In this document: positions 13,819 to 18,928 of the stretch, piece by piece
How the letters are laid out: each line of letters begins with the position of its first letter
How positions within the stretch are numbered: the stretch's first letter is position 1
NCBI GenBank assembly: GCA_015488325.1
Contig: WFOA01000013.1
Location: 1 to 38,984, forward strand
Length of the DNA: 38,984 bases
Origin: Acidimicrobiia bacterium
GTDB taxonomy: Bacteria; Actinomycetota; Acidimicrobiia; Spongiisociales; ZC4RG35
Direction of reading: 5' to 3'
Notes under the pieces: generated by a model
The model's input: the letters and a program-made list of their open reading frames with translations, nothing else
Told to the model about the DNA's origin: nothing
The model's database searches: none
Made by a program: the position numbers and the translations under genes

Positions 13819-14113
13819 GAGGCGTTCGATGGCAGGCGAAACGGACGCGAGCAGCTCGACGGATTCGGGGTGAGGAATGAGGAAACTCCAGGGCTCGGGT
13901 GGAATCTCAGCTTAACTCACCCCCACGTTTGCGCCGAAGAACCCTGATGCCGCCCGCCACACCCCTTCGGTCGGGCCCCGTCCCCGACCTGTTTCCCCAC
14001 CCGATGAAACGTCTCGTTCACGCACCGAGTCTGAACACGACGTGATGGCGGATCGAACACCGCAGGGCCGAGCCCAGACGCAACCGCGTGCGCCGGCTGC
14101 CGATCGGAAAGTC

Positions 14114-15484
14114 ATGAGCGCCGAACAGCGTGTCGACGACGCGATGCTCGGAGACTTCGACACCGCCCATCGGGCTCTGGCCGAACGTGCCCGGGAGGTC
14201 CTGGAGTCGAACTGGCTGGGACACGCCACCCGTCCGGCCGCCGGGCTGTATCCACACCAGTGGAGCTGGGACGCCGGGTTCATCGCCATCGGCTACGCCC
14301 GGTTCGACACTCGGCGTGCGGCCGCCGAACTCCGATCCCTGTTCCGAGGCCAGTGGTCCGACGGGATGCTCCCCCACATCGTGTTCAACGGCGGAGGCGA
14401 GTCGTATTTCCCCGGCCCCGACTACTGGGGCACCGAGCGCTCACCCTACGCGCCACCGCGCCCCCGCACCTCGGGGATCGTCCAACCTCCGATCCACGCC
14501 ACAGCGGCCCTCCGCACCTTCCGCCACGCCACCGACCGTGACACCGCCCGGGCGCTCCTGGAGGAGCTGATGCCGAAACTCGCCGCCTGGCACGGGTACC
14601 TGCACCGGGAGCGGGTCCGTCCCGGCATCGGCCTCGTCGAGATCTGGCATCCGTGGGAGTCGGGGATGGACAACTCGCCGCTGTGGGACGAAGCCCTGAG
14701 CCGCATCGTCCCCGCCCGGGTCCGCGACTGGGTCCGGGCGGACCTCGACCATGCCGACCCCGCCGAACGACCCACCGACGAGGACTACCTGCGCTACCTG
14801 CATCTCGTCGACCTGTTCCGAGAGCTCTCCTACGATCCGGAACGGATCCGCGCCGCCACCCCCTTCGCCGTCGCCGACGTCCTCATGAACACCCTGTGGG
14901 TGCAGGCCAACCGGGATCTGGCGTCGATCGCCGACATCATCGGCGCCGACGGGAGCCGGTTCACCGCCTGGGCCGACGAGGCAGCCGCCGCCATGGGCGA
15001 GATCTGTTGGGACGACACCCTCGACGTGTTCGTCGACTTCGACCTCGTCGCCGGTGCCCCGATCTGTACCCGGGTCGGCGCCGCCTTCGCTCCCCTGTTC
15101 GCCGGGATCCCCGACGCCGACCAGGCCCGACGCATGGTGCGCCGCCTCCACGACGAGGTCGGCGAACACCTCGGCGCCACCACCTGGATGGTGCCGAGCT
15201 TCGATCCGTCCGAGCCGGGCTTCATGCCCACCAACTACTGGCGTGGACCGGTCTGGATCAACGTGAACTGGGTCCTCTATCAGGGTCTGCGGCGGTACGG
15301 CTACCACGTCGAGGCGGCGTCGCTGCGAGCTTCGCTCCTCGCCCTCGCCGAACGCTCCGGCTTCTTCGAGCACTACGACCCGGTCACCGGGAACGGACAC
15401 GGCGCCGACCGGTTCGCCTGGACCGCCGCCCTCGTCCTCGACCTGCTGTTCGAATCGGGCGCCGACGACGCCCGGACCGCCTGA
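14114..15484 (+). CDS. GH63-family glucosylglycerate/mannosylglycerate hydrolase-like
   Basis: GLYPHQWSWDAGFIAIGYARFD...GQWSDGMLPHIVFN...WHGYLHRERV...LVEIWHPWESGMDNSPLWDEAL...YWRGPVWINVNW. Confidence 0.85.
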   Translation: MSAEQRVDDAMLGDFDTAHRALAERAREVLESNWLGHATRPAAGLYPHQWSWDAGFIAIGYARFDTRRAAAELRSLFRGQWSDGMLPHIVFNGGGESYFPGPDYWGTERSPYAPPRPRTSGIVQPPIHATAALRTFRHATDRDTARALLEELMPKLAAWHGYLHRERVRPGIGLVEIWHPWESGMDNSPLWDEALSRIVPARVRDWVRADLDHADPAERPTDEDYLRYLHLVDLFRELSYDPERIRAATPFAVADVLMNTLWVQANRDLASIADIIGADGSRFTAWADEAAAAMGEICWDDTLDVFVDFDLVAGAPICTRVGAAFAPLFAGIPDADQARRMVRRLHDEVGEHLGATTWMVPSFDPSEPGFMPTNYWRGPVWINVNWVLYQGLRRYGYHVEAASLRASLLALAERSGFFEHYDPVTGNGHGADRFAWTAALVLDLLFESGADDARTA

Positions 15485-15550
15485 CGCCACCTCCCCATTC
15501 GGGACGAACGCCCATTCCCAAACCGGCCGCCACGGGTACTGTTGGACTTG

Positions 15551-16888
15551 ATGAGACTCGAGTACCCCCACCGGTTCGAACGTTTCGGCGCCGTCCGAAT
15601 CCATGCTCTGCAGCAGGTCATCGAGCTCGATTCGGGCGCCGACGAGGAGGCGCCGGCGACGACCATCCAGGGACGCATGGTGCAGCACGTCTCGGCCCGT
15701 CACCTGGCGAGCGTCGAGAAGCGGATGGCGATCGTCGTGCCCTGCAAGGACGAACGGCGCAAGGTGATCGAAGGGGTCCTGTCGGGGATCCCCCACGACT
15801 GTCTGATCATCCTCGTGTCGAACTCGGTCCGTGATCCGGTGGATCGTTTCGACATGGAGTGCCGCACCGTCGAGCATTTCTGCCATCTGGCGGAGCGGTC
15901 GGCCGTGGCGATCCATCAGCGCGACCCGGGTCTGGCGGAGGCGTTCCGACTGGCGGGATACACCGAGATCCTCGACGACGACGGGCTGGTCCGGAACGGG
16001 AAGGGGGAGGGGATGCTCGTCGGTCTGCTCCTCGCCTCCCTGGCCGGCCGGGACTACGTCGGTTTCATCGACGCCGACAACTACGTCCCCGGAGCCGTCC
16101 ACGAGTACGCCAAGGCCTACGCCGCCGCCCTCCACCTGGCGGAGAGTCCCTATGCGATGGTGCGCATCTCGTGGATGTCGAAGCCGAAGATCCAGGACGG
16201 ACGGCTCTTCTTCAACCGTTGGGGACGCACGTCCCAGGTCACCAACCAGTTCCTGAACCTGCTCATCGCCGAGTACTCGGGGTTCGGCACCGACATCATC
16301 GCCACCGGCAACGCCGGCGAGCATGCCGTCAGCATGGAGCTGGGGCTGCGGATGCGGATCGCCGGAGGCTTCGCCGTCGAACCCTTCGAGTTCCTCGACC
16401 TGTTCGAGCAGTTCGGCGGCGTGATCCCGTCACCGCATCCCGAAGTCCTCAAGCACACCGTGGACGTCTACCAGGTGGAGACCCGCAACCCCCATTTCCA
16501 CGAGAACAAGGGCCACGGCCACGTCCAGGAGATGCGACTGCAGGCCCTCAACGTCCTCTACCACTCCCCCATCTGTCTCGACTCGGTCCGCGACGAGATC
16601 AGGACGTTCCTCACCGAGCAGGGGGTGATCGGAGCTGAGGAGGAGCCTCCGGCCGAACACGTCTACCCGCCCCTCGTCGACCTCGACCGCAGCCGGTTCC
16701 TGGCCGCCCTCGTGGAACACGCCGAGTCCTTCGTGCAGATCAGCCGCCACCGCATCGCCGACATCGTCGTCGAGGAGCCGATCCTCCTCGACACGGGCAG
16801 ACCGATCGACGTCGAAGGGGTCATCGACCTGGGAGAGATCCAGGGCGACCTCGCCGAAGGGCTCACCGAGAGCGATGCCGACGCCTGA
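15551..16888 (+). CDS. mpgS: Mannosyl-3-phosphoglycerate synthase (GT55)
   Basis: MRLEYPHRFERFGAVRIHALQQVIELDSG...MAIVVPCKDERRKVIEGVLSGIPHDCLIILVSNS...GKGEGML...GFIDADNYVPGAVHEYAKAY...GNAGEHAVSMELGLRM. Confidence 0.92.
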   Translation: MRLEYPHRFERFGAVRIHALQQVIELDSGADEEAPATTIQGRMVQHVSARHLASVEKRMAIVVPCKDERRKVIEGVLSGIPHDCLIILVSNSVRDPVDRFDMECRTVEHFCHLAERSAVAIHQRDPGLAEAFRLAGYTEILDDDGLVRNGKGEGMLVGLLLASLAGRDYVGFIDADNYVPGAVHEYAKAYAAALHLAESPYAMVRISWMSKPKIQDGRLFFNRWGRTSQVTNQFLNLLIAEYSGFGTDIIATGNAGEHAVSMELGLRMRIAGGFAVEPFEFLDLFEQFGGVIPSPHPEVLKHTVDVYQVETRNPHFHENKGHGHVQEMRLQALNVLYHSPICLDSVRDEIRTFLTEQGVIGAEEEPPAEHVYPPLVDLDRSRFLAALVEHAESFVQISRHRIADIVVEEPILLDTGRPIDVEGVIDLGEIQGDLAEGLTESDADA

Positions 16889-17681
16889 GGCGCCTCGGGT
16901 CATCCTCTTCACCGACCTCGACGGCACCCTCCTCGACCACGACACCTACCAACCCGGCCCGGCGACCGTCGCCGTGGAGAGGCTCGTCCGAGCCGAGATC
17001 CCCGTCGTGTTCTGCTCGGCCAAGACCGTCGCCGAGCAGCGGGCGCTGGCTCGGGCGCTCGGGCTGCACCCCGGCTTGATCGCCGAGAACGGGGCGGCGG
17101 TGTCGCTTCCGCCCGGGTTCGCCGGTCTGGCGTCGGGGGTGGAACGGACCTTCGGTCTGCGCTACGAGGAGGTCCGCGGCGCGATCGCCGAGGTGGCGGA
17201 GAGCCTCGGATGCTCGGTTCGGGGATACGGCGACATGTCCCGTGCGGAGGTGGCTGCGGTCACGGGGCTCGATCTCGACGCCGCCCGTCGAGCCATGGAC
17301 CGATGCTGCACCGAGACCCTCGTCGAACTCGTCGGGGCCGATCCCGAGTCCTTCGCCCGGAGTCTCGAGGCCAGAGGCCTGCGGCTGCAGCGCGGCGCCC
17401 GGTTCTGGACGGTGCAGGGACCCCACGACAAGGGACGGGCGGTCCGCTGGGTGGAGACGTGGCTCCGAGACCGGGGGACGACCCCGACGACCTGCGGGGT
17501 GGGCGACGCCGACAACGACCTGGAGATGCTGGCGGCGGTCGACCACCCCTTCCTGGTCCGCCGCCCCGACGGCTCGTGGGCGGATCTCCGGCTCCCCCGG
17601 CTCCGTCGCCTGTCCGGGATCGGCCCGGCCGGCTTCGCCGAAGCCGTCGAGGTGATCCTCGCGGAGGTGTCCGGACCCTGA
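16875..17681 (+). CDS. mpgP: Mannosyl-3-phosphoglycerate phosphatase (HAD family)
   Basis: FTDLDGTLLDHDTY, VVFCSAKTVAEQ, LIAENGAAV, GVGDADNDLEML. Overlaps mpgS by 14 nt. Confidence 0.9.
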   Translation: MPTPEAPRVILFTDLDGTLLDHDTYQPGPATVAVERLVRAEIPVVFCSAKTVAEQRALARALGLHPGLIAENGAAVSLPPGFAGLASGVERTFGLRYEEVRGAIAEVAESLGCSVRGYGDMSRAEVAAVTGLDLDAARRAMDRCCTETLVELVGADPESFARSLEARGLRLQRGARFWTVQGPHDKGRAVRWVETWLRDRGTTPTTCGVGDADNDLEMLAAVDHPFLVRRPDGSWADLRLPRLRRLSGIGPAGFAEAVEVILAEVSGP

Positions 17682-17761
17682 CGAAGACATCATTCGTGTC
17701 GGCCCGTCCGGGGCCGCGACGGTTCCGTCTCGAAGCCGGACGCGGCGGGTAGGGTGCGGCC

Positions 17762-18928
17762 ATGGGCACCATGGTCGTCTTCCCTTTCAAGACCGAACGC
17801 CCCGAGGTGGTCCTCCGCAACATCAGGGTCGCCGCCGCCCACGAGGCGGTGAGCGAGGTCCTCTGCGTCGGCTACGAAGAGGAGTCGACCTACCGGGCGA
17901 TCGCCGACGCCAGCCCCGGTATCGCCAAGGCGGCCCGTACCCCGGTGACCCTCCGCCTCCAGGACCGGATCGGCACCCGCCGTCCCGGCAAAGGCGACGG
18001 CATGAACACCGCCCTCCGCCATTTCCTCGACACGCCCCACGACCGCCTCCACTTCTACGACAGCGACATCACCACGTTCGACGGTTCCTGGATCACGAAG
18101 GCGGAGCGCGGCCTCGACCTCGGCTACGACGTCGTCCGCCATTTCTTCCCTCGGGCGGCCACCGACGCCATGATCACCTGGCTGGTGACCCGGACCGGGT
18201 TCGCCATCCTCTTTCCTCGCTCCGAGCTCCCATGGATCGAACAGCCCTTGGGGGGCGAACTGGCGTTGAGTCGGCGGGCCGCCAAGGCCCTCGCTGCCGA
18301 CCATCGGGTCGCCGAACGCAGCGACTGGGGGATCGACACGATGCTCGCCTTCTCGTCGGTGCAGGACCGGATGTCGATCCTCGAGGTCTACGTGCCTCAG
18401 GGCAAGGCCCACAAGCTGTACGGACAGCTCACCGACCTGAAACGGATGCTCGTCGAATGCTTCGCGGCGGTCCGCGACCTGAGGGAGGAAACGTTGGAGC
18501 CGGGCATCGTCCACCACGTCGAATACCCCGACGTGGTCCCGCCGTCCATCGCCGAGAAGGTGGGATACGACGTCGAAGGGACGATACAGCTCCTCCCCGA
18601 GGCCTGGTCCGAACGTCAGATGGAGCTGTTGGAGTATTTCCCCATCCCGATCCGGGATGGGATGGTGGCGGCCCGGCACCGGACCACCTTCTCGTTCCTC
18701 GACGAATGCTCCTGGTACGACGCCTTCGAGGTGCTCCTCCAGCATTTCGACGAGGCCGACGAGGACTGGGCAGACCTGCTGTTCCACCTGTGGACCGTCC
18801 GGGTCCTCGCCTACACCCACGAGGCGGCGCTGCGCGGCTACTCCTACGCCCTGCGCTACCTCCACGGGATGGTGTTCCGGTACCTGTACCGGGCCGCGAC
18901 GGGGAGGGTCCTCCGGCCCGGCGAGTGA
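17762..18928 (+). CDS. mgs: Mannosylglycerate synthase-like glycosyltransferase (GT78, Rhodothermus Mgs type)
   Basis: MGTMVVFPFKTERPEVVLRNIRVAAAHEAVSEVLCVGYEEESTYRAI...RLQDRIGTRRPGKGDGMNTALRHFL...LHFYDSDITTFDGSWITKAE...HFFPRAATDAMITWLVTRTGFAILFPRSELPWIEQPLGGEL...RSDWGIDTM. Confidence 0.88.
   Translation: MGTMVVFPFKTERPEVVLRNIRVAAAHEAVSEVLCVGYEEESTYRAIADASPGIAKAARTPVTLRLQDRIGTRRPGKGDGMNTALRHFLDTPHDRLHFYDSDITTFDGSWITKAERGLDLGYDVVRHFFPRAATDAMITWLVTRTGFAILFPRSELPWIEQPLGGELALSRRAAKALAADHRVAERSDWGIDTMLAFSSVQDRMSILEVYVPQGKAHKLYGQLTDLKRMLVECFAAVRDLREETLEPGIVHHVEYPDVVPPSIAEKVGYDVEGTIQLLPEAWSERQMELLEYFPIPIRDGMVAARHRTTFSFLDECSWYDAFEVLLQHFDEADEDWADLLFHLWTVRVLAYTHEAALRGYSYALRYLHGMVFRYLYRAATGRVLRPGE

Follow-up and report, generated by a model that had tools for sequence, protein, structure and literature searches.

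For three of the four proteins described here, the nearest homologues of solved structure are MpgS, MpgP and MgH of Thermus thermophilus (2wvk, 3ztw and 4wva), an organism that to our knowledge has only the two-step route to mannosylglycerate (MG). Rhodothermus marinus is credited with a dual MG pathway, consisting of MpgS/MpgP plus MGS (PMC8490865 and PMC1224877, citing Borges et al. 2004), whose two routes reportedly play specialised parts in osmo- and thermoadaptation (PMC8490865, citing Borges 2004). In the R. marinus MGS, Glu11 is assigned to the ribose, Gln66 to the guanine, Thr139 to the glycerate and Asp102 and His217 to the metal, while Lys76, Asp100 and Asp192 form a network; Leu163, Trp189, Tyr220 and Met229 are listed as well (PMC2581804). 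The glucosylglycerate hydrolase of M. hassiacum (MhGgH) acts on both glucosylglycerate (GG) and MG, binding the two through nearly the same contacts (PMC6608630).

Four consecutive and intact plus-strand genes, mgH, mpgS, mpgP and mgs, occupy positions 14114-18928 of the window, the whole stretch of 38,984 nucleotides that was analysed, which is contig C13 of a 2.89-Mb, 98% complete Acidimicrobiia MAG (Table 1). They very probably make up an MG osmolyte/thermolyte locus with two routes and a hydrolase, for which the enzyme activities, promoters, differential regulation and stress role are all predicted. The first-pass annotation had assigned the four products to the GH63-type, GT55, MpgP (HAD) and GT78 families, and each assignment is borne out by strong family matches and kept catalytic residues. 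Its claim that both MG routes and a hydrolase sit in one place also holds, and the gene order recurs in another species of this genus. The mpgP gene overlaps mpgS by 14 nt, and mgs starts 80 nt past mpgP. All four genes look coding by codon-position composition, and chance is excluded as the source of the four-gene arrangement. The start of mgH is placed at ATG 14114; a longer start at 14042 or 14045 is possible, but the sequence there shows poor conservation with the sister species. ATG 15551, rather than TTG 15542, is the most likely start of mpgS, Met1 of the Thermus MpgS lining up with this ATG in the alignment to 2wvk.

Table 1. Features of the MG locus (positions in the window)
Feature	Position	Strand	Description	Basis
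mgH	14114..15484	+	GH63-type mannosylglycerate/glucosylglycerate hydrolase, 456 aa	PF22422; Thermus MgH match; residues kept
candidate leaderless -10 box TACTGT	15537..15542	+	8 nt before mpgS ATG	inferred
mpgS	15551..16888	+	GT55 mannosyl-3-phosphoglycerate synthase, 445 aa	TIGR02460; 2wvk
mpgP	16875..17681	+	HAD-IIB mannosyl-3-phosphoglycerate phosphatase, 268 aa	TIGR01486; 3ztw
candidate leaderless -10 box TAGGGT	17750..17755	+	6 nt before mgs ATG	inferred
mgs	17762..18928	+	GT78 one-step mannosylglycerate synthase, 388 aa	PF21969 + PF21967; 2bo4

The two-step route is represented by well-supported family members. MpgS matches PF09488 (E 6e-158) and the Thermus MpgS 2wvk (E 1e-119), scores 496.6 bits against TIGR02460 (equivalog cut-off 351.2), and keeps the DxD motif D167-A-D169, the AGEH stretch and the equivalent of H309. 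It also runs about 50 residues past the end of the Thermus protein, in a C-terminal extension with an acidic end that is conserved in the sister species (window 16739-16888). MpgP matches 3ztw (E 1e-31), carries the HAD motifs DLD (DxD) and GDADND (GDxxND), and scores 214.9 bits against TIGR01486, the MPGP subfamily model (cut-off 164.75). Because its 177.8 bits against the equivalog TIGR02461 fall below the cut-off of 244.35, it is best described as a member of the MPGP subfamily whose substrate is suggested by linkage to mpgS.

The one-step enzyme is closer still to its described counterpart. MGS matches PF21969 (MGS_GT) over residues 4-238 (E 1e-104, 349 bits) and PF21967 (MGS_C) over residues 263-371 (E 4e-34), aligns with the R. 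marinus MGS 2bo4 over 378 residues (E 9e-151), and shares 57-58% identity with the MGS proteins from Rhodothermus MAGs. A check of the GDP-mannose residues had been proposed for this GT78 homologue, and all the active-site residues checked are unchanged from R. marinus, guanine and glycerate contacts included (E11, Q66, K76, D100, D102, T139, L163, W189, D192, H217, Y220 and M229). Membership of another GT family can be rejected, since the protein scores 349 bits with MGS_GT and just 20 bits with GpgS. A more distant clade of MGS, with about 40-48% identity to the window protein and the active site largely kept, was found mostly in the window's family (L021, L101-L106, L108, L111); in many same-family genomes its genes stand head-to-head with the HerA-like gene that flanks the cluster, on the other side of that gene from the window's mgs.

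The order mgH-mpgS-mpgP-mgs is also that of a MAG of the same genus (JALSJV010000149, from sample 354-166, the source of a Rhodothermus MAG as well), in which the cluster has the same flanking genes. In both species these are a gene of the fatty-acid-desaturase family and a HerA-like gene, the latter without a Pfam match and so named by us. Between the two species dN/dS is 0.17 for mgH, 0.07 for mpgS, 0.37 for mpgP and 0.12 for mgs, with dS at 0.5-0.7 throughout. Signs of decay of either route were sought in the sister-species copies, and no internal stops were found, with dN/dS below 0.4 for all four genes. All four are thus under purifying selection, which argues that both routes are maintained and neither is decaying. 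The fastest-evolving of the four is mpgP (window 16875-17681), at 67-68% amino-acid identity to the sister species as against 86-94% for the others, with no motif lost and no break. One route alone might nevertheless make MG, the other enzyme having drifted to a related product (MGS using another acceptor, for example, or MpgS giving a glucosyl solute), and in keeping with such drift R. marinus accumulates mannosylglyceramide as well (PMC1224877) and MpgP changes faster than its neighbours. With MpgS strongly constrained and well over its equivalog cut-off, and with every checked MGS residue unchanged, including the contacts to guanine and glycerate, we consider this unlikely.

The hydrolase completes the proposed set of two MG routes and a breakdown enzyme. 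MgH matches the Pfam profile PF22422 'MGH1-like' (E 1.2e-109); among solved structures it matches Thermus TTHA0978/MgH best (2z07, 4wva; E 9e-113), at 48% identity. It belongs to the same enzyme family as the mycobacterial MhGgH, keeping the catalytic acid Asp182 and base Glu419 and also, as substrate residues that MhGgH has in common with characterised MgH enzymes, Y36, W40, W42, D43, Y88, Q115, G180, R216, Y222, Y375 and W376 (MhGgH numbering). It differs from MhGgH in being only 39% identical to it and in its genomic setting, there being no GpgS above cut-off in the window's genome. Since a characterised family member takes both substrates (PMC6608630), MgH may, as far as sequence goes, prefer either MG or GG. 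Conceivably the protein has no part in MG turnover and hydrolyses glucosylglycerate or alpha-glucosides in general, lying beside the cluster by chance; among the Acidimicrobiia clusters mgH is present only in the window's genus, and other Acidimicrobiia MgH homologues sit in genomes without an MpgS or MGS match. The association recurs, however, mgH adjoining mpgS-mpgP in Rhodothermus and overlapping mpgP in a genome of the same family. The window protein is also nearer to Thermus MgH than to the mycobacterial GgH, and at 413.3 bits it stays under the cut-off of 550 for the glucosylglycerate hydrolase equivalog NF047898, so that a chance neighbour is improbable. In the same-family genome (G247; L169:5289-8445) mgH, which overlaps mpgP there, is divergent from a gene for a sigma-70-type factor, and mpgS is on another contig.

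Short upstream motifs bear on how a locus of two routes and a dedicated hydrolase might be expressed. A TANNNT hexamer close before the start codon marks leaderless promoters in other Actinomycetota. Among 215 genes from 375 kb of the window's genome, TANNNT occurs 6-10 nt before the start codon in 22 cases, as against about 5 expected, and a gap of 6 is the peak. The TACTGT box before mpgS is kept in the sister species; so is the TAGGGT box before mgs, within an intergenic stretch that is otherwise hardly alignable. As motif evidence, these conserved boxes suggest separate leaderless promoters for mpgS and mgs. Scans for a sigma-70 consensus and for terminators gave nothing above shuffles. 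The two routes are probably regulated apart, and three transcription units (mgH, mpgS-mpgP and mgs) would be a plausible arrangement.

In the most likely pathway MpgS would join GDP-mannose to 3-phosphoglycerate and MpgP would take off the phosphate, giving MG, while MGS, from what is probably its own leaderless promoter, would make MG from GDP-mannose and D-glycerate in one step. MgH would split MG, and possibly GG, to hexose and D-glycerate once the solute is no longer needed, and the freed glycerate would enter metabolism through a GckA-type glycerate kinase. The genome has a mannose-1-phosphate guanylyltransferase (GDP-mannose pyrophosphorylase) above the TIGR01479 cut-off, and it encodes a glycerate kinase domain of the GckA type (PF13660), so that both a supply of GDP-mannose and an outlet for glycerate are available. 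Glycerate kinase PF02595 was not found in the genome; its absence was considered as a hint of a closed glycerate cycle and rejected, the GckA-type domain being present. The earlier idea that MGS re-mannosylates the D-glycerate freed by MgH has in its favour that mgH and mgs share a locus, but such a cycle would be wasteful, spending GDP-mannose for no gain when the kinase domain offers glycerate another outlet, and with no MgH match in four of the six dual genomes from Acidimicrobiia it is highly improbable. What stands of the proposed module that synthesises and recycles MG is the combination of both routes with a hydrolase; the recycling is better understood as breakdown once the stress has eased. 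Keeping both routes probably enables the cell to respond to different stresses or to differing supplies of precursor, in line with what is reported of R. marinus. Heat adaptation of the host is weakly suggested by a 16S core GC of 59.1% (56.8-59.2% in relatives) and by a somewhat raised charged-residue bias in amino-acid composition.

A survey of how often GT55 and GT78 co-occur, suggested in the first-pass annotation, found both in 6 of 396 genomes of the class, with the MGS and MpgS genes neighbours in all six, and found linked loci in other phyla too. Within the class, MGS was found in 35 genomes, MpgS in 11 and MgH in 23. Without removal of relatedness, the six dual genomes compare with 0.97 expected (P 1e-4), and by genus the count is 3 against 0.76 (P 0.03), again with relatedness not removed. 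The window's genus and three genomes from a different family have the order mpgS-mpgP-mgs, and G237 has mgs-mpgS-mpgP; MgH joins the dual cluster in the window's genus only. In family f3 the dual loci have genes for ABC-2-type transporters next to them (L045:5714-7476, L046:6737-8502 and L047:10262-12048), with ABC_tran and ABC2_membrane domains in L045 and ABC2_membrane in L047. By its MGS, the window's genus stands next to g14, a genus with MGS only, and close to the duals of family f3, and the window's MpgS groups weakly with solo MpgS of the same family. These MGS and MpgS groupings do not support the idea that the cluster moved between Acidimicrobiia families as a single unit.

Of 46 named genomes with a close MGS, 13 have MpgS too. 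Beyond the Acidimicrobiia, linked dual loci occur in Desulfohalobiaceae (L082, L085), a Desulfobacterales MAG (L088) and Sumerlaeota (L095), and also in Desulfothermus okinawensis (L109), with frames broken in the draft record. The Desulfobacterales MAG (G421) has a second MGS copy on a different contig, cut by the contig end (L257). The differing layouts of the dual loci (tandem, divergent and convergent) suggest that such loci were assembled repeatedly. A more far-reaching reading, which we offer tentatively as possible rather than probable, is that two separately promoted routes and a dedicated hydrolase were selected together as a compact MG homeostasis locus, with route switching and regulated breakdown setting the solute level, and that dual loci arose repeatedly in unrelated phyla with the routes being complementary and not redundant. 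With these results an actinobacterial lineage joins the few organisms having both MG routes, and the reason for keeping two routes to one solute becomes testable in cultivable dual-route organisms.

The Desulfobacterota loci (L082, L085, L088 and the broken L109) resemble the window in bringing GT55, MpgP and GT78 together. Unlike the window they have no MgH, and their layout is divergent, with MpgP-MpgS on one side and MGS-glycerate kinase-ManC on the other. The families of the two genes after MGS (glycerate kinase PF02595 and ManC) were identified in L082, and genes of matching size follow MGS in L085 and L088; this content fits a D-glycerate/GDP-mannose pathway. Beyond MpgP lies a myo-inositol-1-phosphate synthase gene, within a larger thermolyte island (L082:2329-9731; also L085 and L088). 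At least three types of locus, each with its own arrangement, link the routes physically (in Acidimicrobiia, Desulfobacterota and Sumerlaeota), and in Rhodothermus the routes are apart. The linkage of both routes with a hydrolase is uncommon, having been found in one genus only in these searches, although linked dual loci may conceivably have been described before.

R. marinus, put forward earlier as the best-known dual case, does have the same gene content as the window (GT55 MpgS, MpgP, GT78 MGS and GH63-type MgH); its MGS is unlinked, and linkage is not unique to the window. In two Rhodothermus MAGs mgH adjoins mpgS-mpgP but is divergent from it, whereas the window genes are co-directional, and MGS lies on a different contig from this group, whereas in the window it is linked. 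Three Rhodothermaceae genomes with long contigs have no mpgS, mpgP or mgH within about 18 kb of MGS. The enzymes and the gene combination are thus already known from Rhodothermus, and the arrangement is the uncommon part: the window packs the gene content of Rhodothermus more tightly.
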